From assembly GCA_018650465.1 (NCBI GenBank), contig JABIFY010000099.1, positions 1 to 42,294 of the forward strand: DNA of 42,294 nt. The letters are read 5' to 3'. Made by a program: the position numbers and the translations under genes. Below are positions 30,272-42,294 of this stretch, in pieces. This DNA comes from Alphaproteobacteria bacterium (GTDB lineage Bacteria > Pseudomonadota > Alphaproteobacteria > UBA2966). How positions within the stretch are numbered: the stretch's first letter is position 1; every line of letters starts with the position of its first letter. The notes under the pieces are model-generated. The model did not search any database. It was not told where the DNA came from and saw only the letters and a list, made by a program, of their open reading frames with translations.

Positions 30272-32485
30272 CTAGACTGCGATGGCCTGCACCTGGTCCT
30301 CGACTTTGCTGATGCGGCACAGAAGACAGCGTGCGGTGGACCCACCCATCACCGGATCGATGTCGTCGCGCAGCGGCGTCAGCACATTGGCCCCGACCAT
30401 CAGGGTGCCGTCGATCAGGTCTTTGCCAGGCATGTACCAAAGGCCTTCCGCATTAACAACGCGTGGGTCCATACCGGGCAACAAGGTGACCTGTCGCACG
30501 ATGGTGTTCTCTGTTGTTGGCGCTTCGATACTGACCCAGTCACCTTCCTGGACACCAAATCTCTCGGCTGTTTCCGGCGCCATTTCCAGGCCAGGCCACG
30601 GGCGGCGCTTGCGCAGGCGGGGAATTGAAATACCCAGTGTCGAATAATATTCCACAGATCGTGTACCACTGATCAGCACCAGCGGATAATCCTCCGAGAC
30701 CGCCGTCGCCTCACCGTCTTCATCTTGCGGACTGAACATGGGCTCCATCACCTGGGGCAATGGATCATAGCCAAACTTTTCCAGTTGCTGGCTGGTGAAT
30801 TCGATTTTGCCGGAAGGTGTGTTAAAGCCAGGCTTGCCATCAGGGCGCAGATTGCCGGAGACATGTTTGCTGCGCTCGTCCGGGCCGATAAAAGACCCCA
30901 TTTCCGAAAATTCATCGAAGGTAATGCCCAGTGGCTCAAGCCGATAGTCGAGCAATTCCCGATAGCTTTGTACCGGCAGTTTATCGCCATAGCCCATGCG
31001 GCGCAGGACTTCGAGCACAGCGTCAGCTTCCTCACGCACTTCACCCCTGGGTTCGGTGCATTTGATGCGGGCGGTTATCAGATTAAGCCCGGCATATTCA
31101 GTGATGGCATCGGATTCCAGGTGGTTGGTTACCGGCAAGATATAGTCTGCCAGATGCGCCGTCGGGCTTTCGAACATATCCGAGACAATCAGAAGGTCCA
31201 GCGACTTCAGCGCCTTGAGCACACGATAGCTGTCTTCCAGACCGACCATGGGATTACAGTCTGTCCACAACGCCCGCACCGGATAGGGCTCTCCCGTCAA
31301 CATAGCGTCAATGACGTGCGAGGGATTGGGGTAGGGTGCTGTCAGGGCAGTGGGGCCGGAGAGCAGCGGGAATTTGTCGGCACTGATCTGGTCCGTCAGG
31401 CGCCCGGCGTCATCAGCAGAGGCACCAGGTCGATAGTAGCTTGGCAGACGCATGTTGACCGGCTTGAGAATGCAGTTGTTGCCGGACTGGTCGATGTGAC
31501 CTTTCAGCGCCGGCAGGAAGCCCATCAAGCGCAGCGTCGCAATCGAATTGCCGCCCATCGTGGCGCCAATGAAAGTATAGAGAGATGATTTTTTCGAGGT
31601 GGCGAACAGGCGCGTGGCCTCCAGAATATCAGCCTCGGGAATCCAGGTGGTGCGTGCGGTGCGTGCCAGGTCATATTCTGCAGCCCGTGCCTTCAGGTCG
31701 TCAAAGCCGATGGTCCAGTCGCGGACAAAGTCTTCGTCGTACCAGCCTTTTTGGATCATGATATTGACCATGCCCATGGCCAGGGCGGCATCAGTACCCG
31801 GTCGGATACGCAGCCACAGATCAGCCTCGCGCGCGGCCCGTGTCGGGCGCGGGTCGACGACCACGGTTTTGGCCCCGTGCTTGCGCACAGCATCTTTCAC
31901 CCGCACGGCTTTTGATCCGTTGGTCTCGGTCAGATTGACGCCCCACAGGATAAAAGTGTCACATTCCTCCACATCCATGAAATTGATGTAAGTCGCCAGC
32001 GATCCGTAGGTCAGCACATCCGACATCAATTGTGGCGTGAAGCAATTGTGGGCGTCGTGCTTGAAAAAAGTTGGACTGCCGATGGCCTCCAGGAACAGGT
32101 CGTAGGCGTAATATTCCTTCGGCGGCAGGGCCTGAACGCCGACGGCGCGCGCGCCATGTTTATCAATGATCTTGTTCATGCGTTCGGCAATATCCTGCAA
32201 CGCTTCATCCCAGCTGACACGCCGCCACTGACCTGAACCACGTTCACCCACCCTTTTTTGTGGGTAGATGATGCGGTCTTCGGCTTCCATCATGTCGACA
32301 GAGGCCTTGCCCTTCACACAGAGATAACCCTTGCTCAGGGGATGGTCCCTGTCGCCAATGAATTTTTTGATCTTGCCAAGTTTGGTGTTGGCCGAACGGG
32401 TATTGGTATTAACCGCCTCTTCGGTTTCGACCAGCATTCCGCATCGCACGAGACAGAGGCGGCAGGTTGTTCGGATGGAAGGCAT
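30272..32485 (-). CDS. Molybdopterin-dependent oxidoreductase
   Basis: A 737-residue catalytic subunit of the DMSO-reductase family. C8, C11, C15 and C56 (CRLCLVRC ... GYLCVKG) should bind a 4Fe-4S cluster; C148 in AHNCFTPQ sits where the Mo/W ligand is expected. The C-terminal domain (about 620-737) is the molydopterin-dinucleotide-binding barrel. No Tat signal is present, so it is cytoplasmic, and no electron-transfer subunit genes adjoin it. I chose ATG 32485 (MPSIRTTCRLC, preceded by GGGAA) because the upstream 59 residues of open frame are not family-like. The reaction is unknown; formate dehydrogenase-, acetylene hydratase- or thiosulfate reductase-like functions are all possible. Confidence 0.88.
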   Translation of the reverse strand: MPSIRTTCRLCLVRCGMLVETEEAVNTNTRSANTKLGKIKKFIGDRDHPLSKGYLCVKGKASVDMMEAEDRIIYPQKRVGERGSGQWRRVSWDEALQDIAERMNKIIDKHGARAVGVQALPPKEYYAYDLFLEAIGSPTFFKHDAHNCFTPQLMSDVLTYGSLATYINFMDVEECDTFILWGVNLTETNGSKAVRVKDAVRKHGAKTVVVDPRPTRAAREADLWLRIRPGTDAALAMGMVNIMIQKGWYDEDFVRDWTIGFDDLKARAAEYDLARTARTTWIPEADILEATRLFATSKKSSLYTFIGATMGGNSIATLRLMGFLPALKGHIDQSGNNCILKPVNMRLPSYYRPGASADDAGRLTDQISADKFPLLSGPTALTAPYPNPSHVIDAMLTGEPYPVRALWTDCNPMVGLEDSYRVLKALKSLDLLIVSDMFESPTAHLADYILPVTNHLESDAITEYAGLNLITARIKCTEPRGEVREEADAVLEVLRRMGYGDKLPVQSYRELLDYRLEPLGITFDEFSEMGSFIGPDERSKHVSGNLRPDGKPGFNTPSGKIEFTSQQLEKFGYDPLPQVMEPMFSPQDEDGEATAVSEDYPLVLISGTRSVEYYSTLGISIPRLRKRRPWPGLEMAPETAERFGVQEGDWVSIEAPTTENTIVRQVTLLPGMDPRVVNAEGLWYMPGKDLIDGTLMVGANVLTPLRDDIDPVMGGSTARCLLCRISKVEDQVQAIAV

Positions 32486-32537
32486 GTCAATTCCCGATCT
32501 GTTTTGGTGAAAAGCGCAGCGCGGCCAGGCAGCCACA

Positions 32538-32577
32538 GGAATATGGCTATTCCACATAACTATTATGGTCTTGTCAA
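32538..32577 (-). promoter_or_regulatory. Candidate promoter with two palindromes
   Basis: In the gap between the divergent oxidoreductase and DUF2062 genes are two neighbouring palindromes: GGAATA-TGGC-TATTCC (32538-32553) and CATAA-CTA-TTATG (32555-32567). On the minus strand a perfect -35 TTGACA (32577-32572) with 17-bp spacing reaches TGGAAT (32554-32549), a fair -10. Both palindromes therefore overlap the promoter and are candidate operators. No cognate regulator is nearby. Confidence 0.45.
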
Positions 32578-32705
32578 ACCGGAAAGCGGTGTTAGCGTGT
32601 GCTGGCACAAGGCAGTGCAAGTATGAATTCTGGCGGCAGGGTTCGACATGTTTCAAAAGCATGCTAGATTTGCCCGAATTGTTTTTTGAAGTCTGTAAAA
32701 AGCCT

Positions 32706-33288: not shown

Positions 33289-33597
33289 ATGATCAGACAT
33301 TGTGTCTTTGTTAAATTTCGTGCCGATGTAACCGCCGCACAAAAACAAGCCGTCTACGACAGCTTGAACGGCTTGCGCGACACCATCCCCGGCATGGTCG
33401 ATGCGGCATTTGGTCCGAATATCTCACCCGAAGGTAAATCCAAAGGGTACGACGATGGCTTCACCATGGATTTCGAAAATGCAGTCGCCCGTGACGTCTA
33501 TCTGGAAGACCCAGGCCATAAAAAGGCCGCTGGTGAAATGGTCAGTTTGCTGCAAGACGGTGGCGAAAGTGTGTTGGTGTTTGATCTGGAAATTTAA
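33289..33597 (+). CDS. Dabb (stress-response A/B barrel) protein
   Basis: A 102-residue single-domain alpha+beta barrel protein beginning MIRHCVFVKFRADVT and containing FGPNISPEGKSKGYDDGFTM and a DPGHKKAAGEM helix. These are typical of the stress-responsive Dabb family, small dimeric barrels of mostly unknown function, some with cyclase-like activity. It lies 13 bp after DUF2062 and 60 bp before the selW-like gene. Confidence 0.9.
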   Translation: MIRHCVFVKFRADVTAAQKQAVYDSLNGLRDTIPGMVDAAFGPNISPEGKSKGYDDGFTMDFENAVARDVYLEDPGHKKAAGEMVSLLQDGGESVLVFDLEI

Positions 33598-33657
33598 GAT
33601 TCCCGGTACAAATCATCTATGATCGAAAGAAGCGCGGAATTATCGAGGAGAAAAATT

Positions 33658-33870
33658 GTGAAAATTGAAATCGAATATTGCGTGGTTTGAAACTATCTAC
33701 CCAGAGCTCTCCGTGCGAGAGAAAGGTTAGAGAAATCTGATGACGTTTCAGTTGAACTGCTCAAGGGCGCAAATGGCGTCTTTGAAATCACAGTCGACGG
33801 CGAGTTGTCATTCTCCAAAAAACAACTTGGTCGCTACCCCACGGACGAGGAGCTCGACGCCCTGGTTTGA
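33658..33870 (+). CDS. SelW/Rdx-family selenoprotein (in-frame UGA = Sec)
   Basis: A 70-residue protein read through an in-frame TGA at 33688-33690 (codon 11). The translation begins MKIEIEYCVVUNYLPRALRA and contains GVFEITVDGELSFSKK and GRYPTDEEL. It matches the SelW/SelT/SelH (Rdx) thioredoxin-like fold, where CxxU or CxxC follows the first strand: here C8-V-V-U11. Rdx proteins are thiol redox proteins, perhaps linked to glutathione. Start GTG at 33658 has an ideal ribosome binding site GAGGAG 7 nt upstream. The frame stays open from 33691 to the true stop TGA at 33868-33870. A SECIS-like hairpin follows the UGA, and a terminator directly follows the stop. The alternative, a Cys-to-stop pseudogene, is less likely because the rest is intact. 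Confidence 0.88.
33697..33730 (+). promoter_or_regulatory. Bacterial SECIS-like hairpin
   Basis: Directly after the UGA the mRNA can fold: CUCUC (33707-33711) pairs with GAGAG (33717-33721) around a CGUGC loop. An outer helix of CUACCC (33697-33702) pairs with GGUUAG (33725-33730) with one mismatch. The apical loop starts 22 nt after the UGA and has G as its second base, matching the published bacterial SECIS pattern (loop 16-37 nt after UGA, G among the first two loop bases). It should bind SelB with Sec-tRNA. Confidence 0.75.
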
Positions 33871-33871
33871 A

Positions 33872-33891
33872 GCAGGGACCGTCCCGCTTTT
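33872..33891 (+). terminator. Terminator of the selenoprotein operon
   Basis: A stem GC(A)GGGA / TCCCGC with a CCG loop, followed by TTTT (33888-33891), starts one base after the stop of the SelW-like gene. It overlaps the convergent moeA stop. Its tight fit supports the reading that the translation unit ends at 33870 and not at the UGA. Confidence 0.65.
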
Positions 33892-35128
33892 AATACCCCA
33901 GAGGCTCCAGGTCGATGATGTCGACGCTATCACCGGCCGTGACCGCCTCGGCATGCGGTGCACGCAAAATCAAGGCGTTGGCGCGGGCGAGGCGGGAGAG
34001 CATGGAGCTGTCTTGTTTGCCAAAGGGCGTGACGGTCAAATTGCCGTTGTCGTCTTTCGTGGTGGTGGCGCGTAGATAATCCTGGCGCTGGTCATTTTTA
34101 CCAAGGTCGGATGTAATCGAGGCGCTGCGGGTTGCAAGGTCGGGCGCGTCAGCCCCCAGCAAGGCGGCGATGGCGGGTTTCAAAAACACCAGGCCGCAGA
34201 CCAGAGCGGAAACCGGATTGCCGGGCAGGCCGAGCATGGGCACGTCACCAAAGTGACCAAATATCAGCGGCTTGCCGGGGCGCATGGCGATGCGCCAGAA
34301 ATCCACATTCAGGCCGGACTCCCCAAGCACCGACTGGATCAAATCATGATCGCCGACCGAGGCCCCGCCGATGGTAATCAACAAGTCGGCCCCACGGGCA
34401 CCGGCGGCCATGGCCACCAGGCCATCGGCATCATCGGGGGCAATGCCCAGATCAATGGCCTCGCCACCGCTGGCGTCGATCAAGGCACAAAGCCCGACAT
34501 TGTTGGACGATACGATCTGGTTGGGGCCGATGGTGTCGCCTGGCATGACCAGTTCGTCGCCATTGGCCAGCACAGCCACGCGCGGTCTGCGGCGCACCCG
34601 CAACCACGGCACATTCATGGCGGCACACAAGGCGATGTCGCGCGCCGTCAGCGTGCGTCCCGCTTCGACACCCACATCACCGGCAGAAAAGTCGAGACCG
34701 GCGGGGCGGATGAACCGGCCTGCCAAAACGGCCTCTTTTACCGTGACCTGGTCGCCGTCACGCATCGTATCTTCCTGAATGACAATGGCATCAGCACCGG
34801 TGGGCACGGGGCCACCAGTGAAAATCCGCACGGCCTGGCCCGCACCGACATTACCATCAAAAGCGCCCCCCGCCGGGGCTTCGCCGATGACGGTCAGTGT
34901 CGCGGGAACGGAGGCCACGTCTGCGGCCCGGACGGCATAACCATCCATGGCCGAGACAGCCACAGGGGGCTGCGTCACGCGGGCAATGACATCGTCAGCC
35001 AGCACCCGGCCACGGGCTTGCGCCAAAGAAACGCTTTCCGCGCTGACGGTCTTCATGGCGTCCAAAATACGGGCGCGGGCGTCCGCGACGGGCATCAATG
35101 TAGATGCACTGGTTGAAATTTTGGCCAT
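33890..35128 (-). CDS. moeA: Molybdopterin molybdenumtransferase MoeA
   Basis: A 412-residue MoeA, which inserts molybdate into adenylylated molybdopterin. Typical motifs: AVSAMDGYAVRAAD near the N-terminus, PTGADAIVIQEDT, the MoCF domain with GGASVGDHDL, and MRPGKPLIFGHFG and GLPGNPVSALV. ATG 35128 is 6 nt after the moaC stop; GGAG overlapping the stop is its ribosome binding site. Two in-frame TTG codons (35134, 35131) lie upstream. It would serve molybdoenzymes such as the oxidoreductase at 30272-32485. Confidence 0.95.
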   Translation of the reverse strand: MAKISTSASTLMPVADARARILDAMKTVSAESVSLAQARGRVLADDVIARVTQPPVAVSAMDGYAVRAADVASVPATLTVIGEAPAGGAFDGNVGAGQAVRIFTGGPVPTGADAIVIQEDTMRDGDQVTVKEAVLAGRFIRPAGLDFSAGDVGVEAGRTLTARDIALCAAMNVPWLRVRRRPRVAVLANGDELVMPGDTIGPNQIVSSNNVGLCALIDASGGEAIDLGIAPDDADGLVAMAAGARGADLLITIGGASVGDHDLIQSVLGESGLNVDFWRIAMRPGKPLIFGHFGDVPMLGLPGNPVSALVCGLVFLKPAIAALLGADAPDLATRSASITSDLGKNDQRQDYLRATTTKDDNGNLTVTPFGKQDSSMLSRLARANALILRAPHAEAVTAGDSVDIIDLEPLGY

Positions 35129-37520: not shown

Positions 37521-38140
37521 GCCCATTTCCTTAGATCAACGGTCAGCGGAGTCACTTCGTTGAGATTATTGATACCGGCACTGCGCAGAAAATTACCGAT
37601 CAAGGCATGCCCATGTTCAGAGGCGATACTTTCCGGATGGAACTGCACGCCGTGGATTTCGTGATCGCAATGACGCAGGCCCATGATGATGCCGTCTTCG
37701 CTGGTGGCGGTAATTTCCAGCTCGTCCGGAAGGCTGTCTTTTTCGACCATCAGGGAATGATAACGTGTGACCTGAAAGCCGTCCGCCAGCCCGGCAAAAA
37801 CACTGCTGTTCTGATGGCTGATATGACTGACTTTTCCATGCATCATTTTCGGTGCGCGCACGACCTTGCCGCCAAAGGCCTGGCCGATAGTTTGATGGCC
37901 CAGGCAGACGCCCAACAAAGGGATATTTCCGGCGGCGGCGGCCACCAGATCAAGGCAAATACCGGCCTGATCGGGATCACACGGACCCGGTGAAAGTACG
38001 ATGGCTTGCGGCTTTGCCGACATGACCTCCTCGACGGATATCTTGTCATTGCGGTGGACCACAACATCAACACCCAGTTCGCCGATATAGTGAACCAGGT
38101 TATAAGCAAAGCTGTCGTAGTTATCGATAAGTATTATCAT
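37517..38140 (-). CDS. trpG: Anthranilate synthase component II (glutamine amidotransferase)
   Basis: A 207-residue class I glutamine amidotransferase supplying ammonia to TrpE (and perhaps PabB). The triad is C79 (LLGVCLGHQ), H168 and E170 (VQFHPES). It is the first gene of the trpG-trpD-trpC-moaC-moeA run and starts at ATG 38140. trpE is not in the window. I find no trp leader peptide with repeated Trp codons in the 258 bp upstream, so attenuation of the enteric type is not seen. Confidence 0.95.
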
Positions 38141-38314
38141 TCAGTGACTTACACGATTATCCCAAGGTGAAAACTTAATGTTATCACTCGATTGTACGCC
38201 CAGGGTTCAACCAAGGCTCAACTAGGGTACGCCCCAAAGAGTGCAGAAAACAGCCCCAGCCCCCTAAGGTCAAGCCCTCGCAGGGATTCCGGCTTACGAG
38301 ACCTTCAAATAAAA

Positions 38315-38347
38315 CCTTGACGTTACAGTAACTGGAAGGCCTATATG
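38315..38347 (+). promoter_or_regulatory. CueR-type copper-responsive promoter
   Basis: A -35 TTGACG (38317-38322) and -10 TATATG (38342-38347) are separated by 19 bp, the overlong spacer typical of MerR-family promoters. Within it is a 25-bp dyad (38315-38339): CCTT...GTTAC-A-GTAAC...AAGG. The TGGAAGG right half resembles the E. coli copA operator. CueR, encoded downstream, is expected to bind here and untwist the promoter when Cu(I) binds. Confidence 0.85.
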
Positions 38348-38398
38348 ATAGTGTGAAACGGGCACGAACGCCTGTCGCTCACACGTTGGATCACTGCC

Positions 38399-40813
38399 AT
38401 GAATATGAACGTACGAAAACCCGAAGTCACCGCGACGGCATCTATCATTTTGCCCGTGCGCGGCATGACCTGTGCCGCTTGTTCAACCCGTCTGGAAAAA
38501 GCCTTTGGTCGGGCTGACGGGGTTGAAAATGCCGTGGTCAATCTTGCGTCGGAACAGGCCGAAATCTCCTATGATCCGGCGACGACTTCACCCCTTGATC
38601 TAGGGAGCGTGGTCAGCCGGGCCGGATTTACGCTGCCGGATGAAACGCTGGAATTTCATATCACGGGTATGACCTGCGCCAGTTGCGCCGGTCGGGTGGA
38701 AAAGGCCCTGAAAAATGTGCCAGGTGTTGGCGATGTAATGGTCAATCTGGCAACGGATACAGCCGCCATCCGTGTCAGTACCGGTGTGGTGACGCCCGCT
38801 GATTTGATCGCGGCCATCGAAGCCGCTGGATATAATGCCACGCCTAAAACCACCGACGAGGAGCGCGAAGCTGTTTTAAGAGCCGAGGCCGAACAGAAAT
38901 TGCGCAACGAACAATGGGCTGTTGTAGGTGCCGCCTTGTTCAGCCTGCCGCTGGTGGGTCAGATGGTGCTGATGATTGCAGGCCTTGGCTGGCATTTACC
39001 GGCCTGGGGAGAACTGCTGCTGGCAGCCCCGGTACAGTTCTGGTTTGGCCGCCGTTTTTATGGCGCAGCCTGGCGCGCTGTGAAAGCCGGGTCCGGCAAT
39101 ATGGATTTGCTGGTGGTCATGGGCACGTCAGCGGCCTTTTTCTTCAGTCTTTATCAAATGAGCATCGGCGGACCGCTCTATTTTGAAGCTGCCGCCGTGG
39201 TCATAACCCTTGTTCTGCTGGGCAAATGGCTGGAAAGCCGGGCCAAACGCAGCACCACCGATGCCATCCGGTCATTGATGCAATTGCGGCCCGATACGGC
39301 GCGTGTGTTGCGGGATGGTGAGGAAACAGAGGTTTCCATCGCCGCCGTCGCCGTTGGCGATGTGGTTGTCGTGCGCCCGGGCGAGCGTTTACCGGTCGAT
39401 GGTTTGGTTACGGAGGGTGCCAGTGCCGTGGACGAAAGCCTGCTCACCGGCGAAAGCCTGCCCGTGGCCAAACAGGCCGGAGCCAAAGTCATTGGTGGGG
39501 CCATCAATGGCACGGGGCGCTTGCTGGTCCAGGCCACTGCCGTGGGTGCTGCGGCGACGCTGGCGCGTATTATCAAGATGGTCGAGGGGGCTCAGGCCAG
39601 CAAGGCACCGGTCCAGAAACTGGTCGACCGGGTCAGTGAAATATTTGTTCCGGCCGTGTTGGTCATTGCCGCCGCAACTTTCGGCGGCTGGTTGCTGGCG
39701 GGCGGCAGCCTGAGTGAAGCGCTGATTGCGGCGGTCTCAGTACTGGTTATTGCTTGCCCCTGTGCGCTTGGTCTGGCCACGCCCACAGCCATCATGGTGG
39801 GAACGGGGGCCGCGGCACGCTCCGGGATCCTGATCAAGGATGCCCTGGCCCTGGAAACAGCCCACAAAGTCACGGCTCTGGTGTTGGATAAAACCGGCAC
39901 CCTGACGGAAGGGCACCCTGTGGTTACGGAAGTTGTCGGCGCAGATGAGAATTTGATTTTGCGCCTGGCCGGGGCCGCCCAAAGCGGTAGTGAACACCCC
40001 CTGGCCAAAGCCGTGCTCGATGCAGCAGCAGAGAAAAAGATCGACTTACCCGGCGTCGCAAACTTTCAGAGCATAACCGGGCAGGGCCTGACAGCCGATG
40101 TGGAAGGCAAAAGCCTGGTTTTGGGCAATCGGACCTTGTTGGATGGGCTGAACATTGATCAGGCCCAATTTGAAGACAAGGCCGTGACCCTGGAAAGTGC
40201 GGGTCAGACGGTCATGTGGCTGGCCAATGAAGGCACTGTGTTGGGGCTGATCGCTGTGGCTGACCCCATCAAGAAGACCGCCATCGAAGCGGTGACCCGT
40301 TTGAAGGCAGCAGGCATCCACACGCTTATGCTTACTGGTGACAATGCGCGCACGGCAGCGGTTGTCGCCCAGGCCGTCGGCGTGGATGAAGTCATTGCCG
40401 AAGTCATGCCGCAGGAAAAAGCACAAGAAGTAGACCGATTGCGGGCACTGGGTCACGTCGTGGCCATGGTCGGTGATGGCATCAACGATGCCCCGGCCCT
40501 GGCAGCGGCGGATATCGGGTTTGCCATGGGCACAGGTACGGATGTGGCCATGCAGACTGCTGGTGTGACCTTGATGCGCGGTGATCCCTTGCTGTTGCCA
40601 GCGGCCATCAATGTCAGTCACGCCACCTGGGCCAAGATTAAACAAAATCTTTTTTGGGCCTTTGTTTACAATTTGGTAGGGATACCTCTGGCAGCATCAG
40701 GATTGTTAAGTCCGATGATTGCCGGTGCGGCCATGGCTTTCTCCAGTTTCAGTGTGGTGTCCAATTCGTTGTTGTTGCGCCGATGGCGCGCAAATGGAGG
40801 ATCGAACAAATGA
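38399..40813 (+). CDS. copA: Cu(I)-exporting P1B-type ATPase CopA
   Basis: An 804-residue membrane ATPase that pumps Cu(I) out of the cytoplasm. Two N-terminal metal-binding domains carry GMTCAAC (C25, C28) and GMTCASC (C93, C96). The transport motif CPC is C453-P454-C455 ([13 protein letters not shown]). The phosphorylated aspartate is D497 in DKTGTLTEG; the nucleotide-binding [11 protein letters not shown] (HP motif) and [16 protein letters not shown] follow. About eight membrane segments. It is preceded by a CueR-type promoter 52 bp upstream and overlaps cueR by 4 nt, forming a self-regulated copper operon. Confidence 0.96.
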
Positions 40814-41235
40814 ATATTGGTGAAGCCGCGGCCCTGTCAGGCGTTGCGCCCAAGAACATTCGCTACTATGAAAGCATTGGTTTGATCGGTCCGGCAAAAC
40901 GCGCCGCCAATGGCTATCGCGCCTATGATGAAACGGACGTGCGCTTGTTGGGTTTTGTTAATCGCGCCCGCAGCCTGGGCTTTTCGGTCAATGATGTCGG
41001 CGGCTTGTTGTCGCTGTATCAGGATCACGGCCGGGCCAGTGGGGACGTTAAAAAACTGGCTCTGGAACATATTGAAGACATTGACCGCAAGGTAGCTGAA
41101 TTGCAAAGCATGCGACGAACCCTGAAAGACCTGACGGATCGCTGCCATGGCGATGACCGACCGGATTGCCCAATCCTGGATGACCTGGCTGCTGGTCCAG
41201 ACGACAGGCCCGATACCGTGCAGGCGGCGGAATAA
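40810..41235 (+). CDS. cueR: Copper-responsive MerR-family regulator CueR
   Basis: A 141-residue MerR protein. The winged helix ([20 protein letters not shown]) is followed by a dimerisation helix and a metal loop C112-HGDDRPD-C120-PI, the Cu(I) ligands at the same positions as in E. coli CueR. It senses cytoplasmic Cu(I) and activates the copA promoter. The ATG overlaps the copA stop (ATGA), preceded by a GGAGG at about 10 nt. The gene sits downstream in the operon it controls, giving positive feedback. Confidence 0.95.
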
Positions 41236-41240
41236 CTTAC

Positions 41241-42294
41241 ATGCGGAATTTTGTCTCACGCCCCGTTGGCTATCTGATTGTTGGCAGCTTTGCCATGATC
41301 ATTGGCTTGTCGACTGGCGTGGGTATTGGTTATTTCTTTGGCGGGGCCGAACAGGCTGTGGAAGTCGTTGAAGTCTCTACACCGGCTGAAGACGACAAGG
41401 TGGTTTCCCTGAACCAGCCAGTGGCACCTCTGCCCATCCCGATCCCGCAAAAGCTTCCCGCGATTGAACCTGTGCCCGACGAAGATGTCTGGACGGCGAT
41501 CCCCGAAATGACAAAAACACGATCCGTTTCGGCTGACGCCCCGGCTCCCTGGCCCGAACTGGTCGAAAAAATTGAAGCCGACCGGTTGGAAAGCGAGACT
41601 GCCGCGCAGGAAAAGCTAAAAAATGAGCTGGCTCAAAAATTAGCCATGCAGGCTGTTCGGGAAAAGGATGAACTGGCCTGGGCTAAAATAGCCGAGGATT
41701 GGGCCAGGCAGATGCCTGAAGATCGTCAGGAAGAACCCGGTACCCGCATCGATCGTGAATCCGCTGTATGGGAGGACAATGCTGTTACGGTGCCGGACCC
41801 GGCGGGCAAACCCATGATCTCGATTGTTATCGATGATCTCGGTCTGAACCGCCGCAACACCGTGCGCACGATCCGCTTGCCCGGGCCCCTGACGCTGGCT
41901 TTCCTGACCTATGCCGAAGACCTTGAACGCCAGACCAGTTCGGCCCATGCCGCGGGGCACGAGCTGATGGTGCATTTCCCCATGGAGCCGCGTAACCCGG
42001 ATACCAATCCCGGCCCCAATGCCCTGCGTGAAGGTTTAAGCGAAACCGAAATTCGTCGTCGCCTGACCTGGGGACTTTCGCGCTTCAAGGGCTATGTGGG
42101 TATCAACAACCACATGGGCAGCGCCTTTACCGGCTATTCAAAAGGCATGGCCGTGGTCATGGACGAGGTGCGCAAGCGCGATGTGCTTTTCCTCGACAGT
42201 CTGACCACTCAAGCGTCTGCCGGACGCAAGACAGCAGCCCAGGCGGGCGTGCCCTTCGTTGCCCGCGATGTATTTCTGGACAATGAAATCGATG
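41241..42294 (+). CDS. Divergent polysaccharide deacetylase (YibQ-like), truncated at window end
   Basis: The first 351 codons of a gene that runs off the right edge. Residues about 10-33 form a hydrophobic anchor (PVGYLIVGSFAMIIGLSTGV), then come a long charged, proline-rich linker (about 35-185) and the catalytic-like domain starting MISIVIDDLGLNRRNT. It includes LMVHFPMEPRN and GINNHMGSAFT, typical of the PF04748 divergent deacetylase family, with the DD, H and NNHMGS motifs visible. Probably periplasmic; its substrate is unknown. ATG 41241 is 5 bp after cueR, but it need not be copper-related. Confidence 0.88.
   Translation, partial: MRNFVSRPVGYLIVGSFAMIIGLSTGVGIGYFFGGAEQAVEVVEVSTPAEDDKVVSLNQPVAPLPIPIPQKLPAIEPVPDEDVWTAIPEMTKTRSVSADAPAPWPELVEKIEADRLESETAAQEKLKNELAQKLAMQAVREKDELAWAKIAEDWARQMPEDRQEEPGTRIDRESAVWEDNAVTVPDPAGKPMISIVIDDLGLNRRNTVRTIRLPGPLTLAFLTYAEDLERQTSSAHAAGHELMVHFPMEPRNPDTNPGPNALREGLSETEIRRRLTWGLSRFKGYVGINNHMGSAFTGYSKGMAVVMDEVRKRDVLFLDSLTTQASAGRKTAAQAGVPFVARDVFLDNEID

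Follow-up and report, generated by a model that had tools for sequence, protein, structure and literature searches.

A SelW-like gene of an alphaproteobacterium whose in-frame UGA is most likely read as selenocysteine

Introduction

An in-frame UGA inside an otherwise intact gene may be a nonsense mutation, an assembly error or a codon that is translated, and a short gene of the Rdx family in an alphaproteobacterial draft genome raises the question of which of these applies. The gene lies on contig JABIFY010000099.1 (assembly GCA_018650465.1), of which we analysed a stretch of 42,294 nucleotides, referred to here as the window. A preliminary description, made from the sequence, had read it as a selenoprotein gene of the SelW/Rdx family. 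This reading was supported by the selenocysteine (Sec) machinery of the genome, by a PF10262 match, by the recurrence of the TGA in 38 relatives and by a covarying bacterial SECIS hairpin, and we consider the locus almost certainly a functional bacterial SelW-like selenoprotein gene.

The interrupted reading frame and its product

The frame opens with a GTG at 33658, meets a TGA at codon 11 and ends at a TGA stop of its own (Table 1); start, in-frame TGA, stop and the spacing of the GAGGAG motif all match the sequence as first described. Reading through the internal TGA gives a product of 70 aa (VKIEIEYCVVUNYLPRALRARERLEKSDDVSVELLKGANGVFEITVDGELSFSKKQLGRYPTDEELDALV), with the TGA at the C-terminal position of a CxxC/CxxU motif, and the claim of an intact Rdx protein with C8-V-V-U11 was confirmed by this translation and by the PF10262 match. 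The gene sits in a 292 bp intergenic gap between an ORF with a Dabb domain, which ends at 33597, and moeA, which is on the opposite strand and ends at 33890, and it was probably overlooked by gene callers and so far left unannotated. A whole-genome search returned it as the sole Rdx locus, with one internal stop only, a TGA. The terminator proposed after the stop codon is plausible but weak, the bulged hairpin and its UUUU being present but not listed by the pattern scan.

Table 1. Coordinates of the gene and its associated features in the window.
Feature	Position	Strand	Details and evidence
SelW-like (Rdx family) selenoprotein gene	33658..33870	+	70 codons plus TGA stop (33868-33870); PF10262, TIGR02174; 38 TGA relatives
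Shine-Dalgarno GAGGAG	33645..33650	+	7 nt to GTG start; read in sequence
C-V-V-U redox motif (Cys8 and Sec11)	33679..33690	+	Translation; Cys in homologues L020-L022, L036-L040, L042-L056
TGA codon most likely read as selenocysteine	33688..33690	+	39 distinct Sec-type sequences with TGA at this codon
Bacterial SECIS hairpin CUCUC-CGUGC-GAGAG	33707..33721	+	Fold, covariation over 39 sequences, frozen synonymous codons
Possible intrinsic terminator hairpin (one bulge) then TTTT	33871..33892	+	Fold, z = -2.3; absent from pattern scan

The alignment to PF10262 that had been proposed as a check placed the product in this family (residues 2-70, 58.9 bits, cut-off 22.6), and the CxxC/CxxU motif near the N-terminus is as expected of Rdx/SelW-like proteins. 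The product resembles both TIGR02174 (CXXU_selWTH) and NF041051 (SelT/SelW/SelH family (seleno)protein; SelTWH_Campy equivalog) over nearly its whole length, exceeding the cut-off of the former (54.7 bits, cut-off 34.2) and narrowly missing that of the latter (81.7 bits, computed with C substituted for U, cut-off 88), hence the protein was filed under the wider family only. Residues 3-62 of the product also matched the sequence of eukaryotic selenoprotein W (PDB 2npb; E = 2.7e-4), and residues 2-67 that of the bacterial Rdx protein Atu0228 (PDB 2fa8; E = 1.7e-8). This kinship suggests a thioredoxin-like fold, as known for the family, and the protein is probably a small thiol/selenol oxidoreductase, judging from its sequence.

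Capacity for selenocysteine insertion

The preliminary description had held that absence of selB, selC or selD would count against selenocysteine and had proposed a search for these genes and selA; all four are present in the genome (4.8 Mb draft, 163 contigs, 98.9% complete), so this objection falls. On contig C147, selA (39973-41334, 599.8 bits) adjoins a full-length selB (38060-39946, 467.7 bits), with the tRNA-Sec gene selC about 0.2 kb beyond selB (37724-37815, 69.1 bits; anticodon tca (UCA) by ARAGORN), and selD is found on contig C112 (98001-98930, 427.6 bits). We compared the occurrence of the Sec system across 49 genomes, 31 with a TGA-type Rdx and 18 with a Cys-type Rdx. selA scored above its cut-off in 30 of the 31 TGA-type genomes versus two of the 18 Cys-type genomes (Fisher p = 7e-10, which is only indicative because related genomes are not independent), and the lone TGA-type genome without selA (G025) is 77% complete.

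UGA read-through by tRNAs other than tRNA-Sec exists in general, and codon 11 could accordingly be imagined as decoded by a near-cognate tRNA as Trp, Cys or Arg, or UGA as reassigned throughout the genome. The complete Sec machinery and the bacterial SECIS speak against another amino acid at this codon, as does the co-occurrence of selA with TGA-type Rdx, and we give such decoding only a slim chance. Global reassignment was rejected, because TGA is also a normal stop in this genome, ending selA, selB and the Rdx gene itself.

The rest of the selenoproteome was sampled by family (PF00384, PF02627 and PF00578). In this genome, none of the 11 molybdopterin-oxidoreductase matches (PF00384) and none of the PF02627 matches contained a TGA, and one of the PF00578 matches did. 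This last is a redoxin-domain ORF outside the window (L105, G000:C32:32085-32420; AhpC-TSA, 72.3 bits) with one TGA, in the context WASW-U-GCRADL, at a position occupied by Cys in thioredoxin-like relatives. It is a probable second selenoprotein of the genome and, going by its motif, may belong to the Prx-like (UGC) selenoproteins that PMC2398784 lists. Within the window, a molybdopterin oxidoreductase is encoded near moeA (30272-32662, reverse strand), it reaches no listed NCBIfam cut-off and is not a selenoprotein because there is no stop inside.

Homologues with UGA or cysteine codons

Rdx was found in four of six other genomes searched in the same bacterial family, each time with exactly one TGA. 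Among 385 genomes sampled from the class, it occurred in 45, of which 27 had one TGA, 17 were stop-free and one was a Cys-type with a TAA elsewhere. A scan of named genomes yielded further loci, eight of the TGA type (L028-L035) and five of the Cys type (L036-L040), at identities of 40-71%, the fourteenth match (L041) being a short match only, which was excluded. The named TGA-type hosts belong to the Alphaproteobacteria, including a Rhodospirillaceae MAG, and to the Acidobacteriota.

Homologues with either Cys or Sec at position 11, which the preliminary description had suggested looking for, were thus both recovered. TGA lies exactly at the codon 11 position in 39 distinct sequences (the gene itself and 38 relatives, extracted and checked individually), and in the Cys-type homologues (n = 23) a Cys aligns with the in-frame UGA. 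None of the relatives found had TAA or TAG at the Sec codon. A worry raised at the outset, that relatives might carry scattered stops, was not borne out, as the 38 TGA-type relatives share the TGA and have no further stop inside the domain. Against the nearest relatives dN was 0.20-0.39 and dS was saturated or at least 1.5; the low dN relative to dS therefore indicates purifying selection on the frame spanning the TGA. In a tree from 73 alignment columns, with the root not placed, Sec and Cys types grouped strongly.

Two smaller variants were seen among the homologues. Three TGA-type loci (L068, L073 and L081), which cluster in the tree, have UGA-GGC (U-G-Y) rather than UGA-AAC (U-N-Y) after the Sec codon. 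In the Cys-type Rdx with a TAA from the class sample (L055, G349:C179:1227-1448), whose genome has selA, the TAA replaces the conserved Tyr just before CxxC (T*CTGC), and either the locus is a pseudogene or the TAA is a sequencing error.

The same-genus genome G001 had no Rdx match anywhere and does have selA, so that either SelW is absent from this particular lineage or the gene falls in a gap of the assembly, which is 94% complete. G001 keeps moeA, with a DUF2852 gene beside it (L084, G001:C79). Synteny was discarded as a line of support, the location next to moeA and the neighbouring genes not being conserved in the family. As G001 is without Rdx and the neighbours are not conserved, the Rdx gene appears to be dispensable.

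This absence, and the in-frame stop itself, are what would be expected of a decaying Rdx pseudogene, struck by a nonsense mutation at codon 11 with the remainder not yet eroded. Such decay is at odds, however, with 38 relatives that hold TGA at the same codon and no other stop in the domain, with a dN far below dS and with the covariation of the downstream hairpin, and given the conserved TGA we regard a pseudogene as very unlikely.

An RNA element downstream of the UGA

The bSECIS model describes a hairpin after the UGA, its apical loop 16-37 nt away, with a G at loop position 1 or 2 (PMC13188914). The hairpin of the Rdx gene conforms to this model: its five pairs span 17-31 nt after the UGA, the loop begins 21 nt after the UGA, and the loop has G at position 2, then U. 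The stability of this single hairpin was not unusual (z = -0.94), and because fold energy was uninformative, we used covariation in its place.

Across the 39 sequences the stem (+20..+24/+30..+34) was paired in 96.9% of cells. Doubly changed pairs were seen at three of the five positions (11 cells versus a shuffled mean of 1.3, 0/500 shuffles as high), and the covariation score was 0.212 versus 0.063 in shuffles and no more than 0.056 for slid versions of the stem. The second pair is U-A in the gene itself, C-G in most relatives and G-C in others, and the fourth is C-G or G-C in relatives. Codons within the hairpin are nearly fixed (Leu CTC 35/35, Arg CGT 37/37, Ala GCG 28/28, Arg AGG 27/31), CGT and AGG being minority Arg codons in the remainder of these genes. 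The frozen synonymous codons and the covarying stem therefore point to constraint on the RNA as well as on the protein. Neither the hairpin codons nor other signs of a SECIS were found in the Cys-type homologues.

These data also bear on a sequencing error, in which a TGC or TGT would have been recorded as TGA, as might happen in a draft of 163 contigs. The TGA, the AAC/GGC-TAC that follows it and the hairpin are nevertheless common to 39 distinct sequences from separate genomes, and Cys-type homologues are without the hairpin codons. Given these relatives, an error is very unlikely, to the point of being negligible.

Discussion

In bacteria, SelB carrying Sec-tRNA binds a hairpin in the mRNA to decode UGA. 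For the present SelW-like gene, SelB in complex with Sec-tRNA(UCA) and the downstream hairpin would decode codon 11 as selenocysteine, and the outcome would be a 70-residue protein of thioredoxin-like fold with a CxxU redox pair. Insertion of Sec at residue 11 is the most likely course, and a redox role of the product would follow from its family. The gene of eukaryotic selenoprotein W has its SECIS in the 3' UTR, unlike the gene described here, and Cys-type Rdx proteins, unlike the Sec-type, need no Sec machinery.

SelW-like selenoproteins of bacteria have been in the literature since about 2005: the Sargasso Sea data contained 48 of their genes (PMC1088965), and the GOS data 427, which made them the most abundant selenoprotein family there (PMC2398784). 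The present gene shares with them the short Rdx protein, the CxxU motif and the SECIS directly after the UGA, differs in nothing fundamental and is a further member. Our results differ from a 2006 paper, which reported FdhA as the sole selenoprotein among those Alphaproteobacteria that decode Sec and had been sequenced by that time (PMC1794560), in that SelW is frequent in the probably alphaproteobacterial genomes sampled here and the molybdopterin-oxidoreductase matches of this genome are without TGA. The family is already known and NCBI models for it exist, hence what is new is a member and an update of the distribution, not a new kind of selenoprotein. Tentatively, the alphaproteobacterial SelW genes may form a broad lineage whose SECIS loop is nearly frozen (CGUGC/CGUGU), and their hosts may retain the Sec system to make SelW and a few redoxins instead of formate dehydrogenase.

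The finding contributes a selenoprotein that would be lost in standard gene calling, and gives a frequency for UGA-type SelW among the class genomes sampled (27/385). For questions about what SelW does in bacteria, a set of 39 sequences of the Sec type in which the SECIS is clear is useful material.
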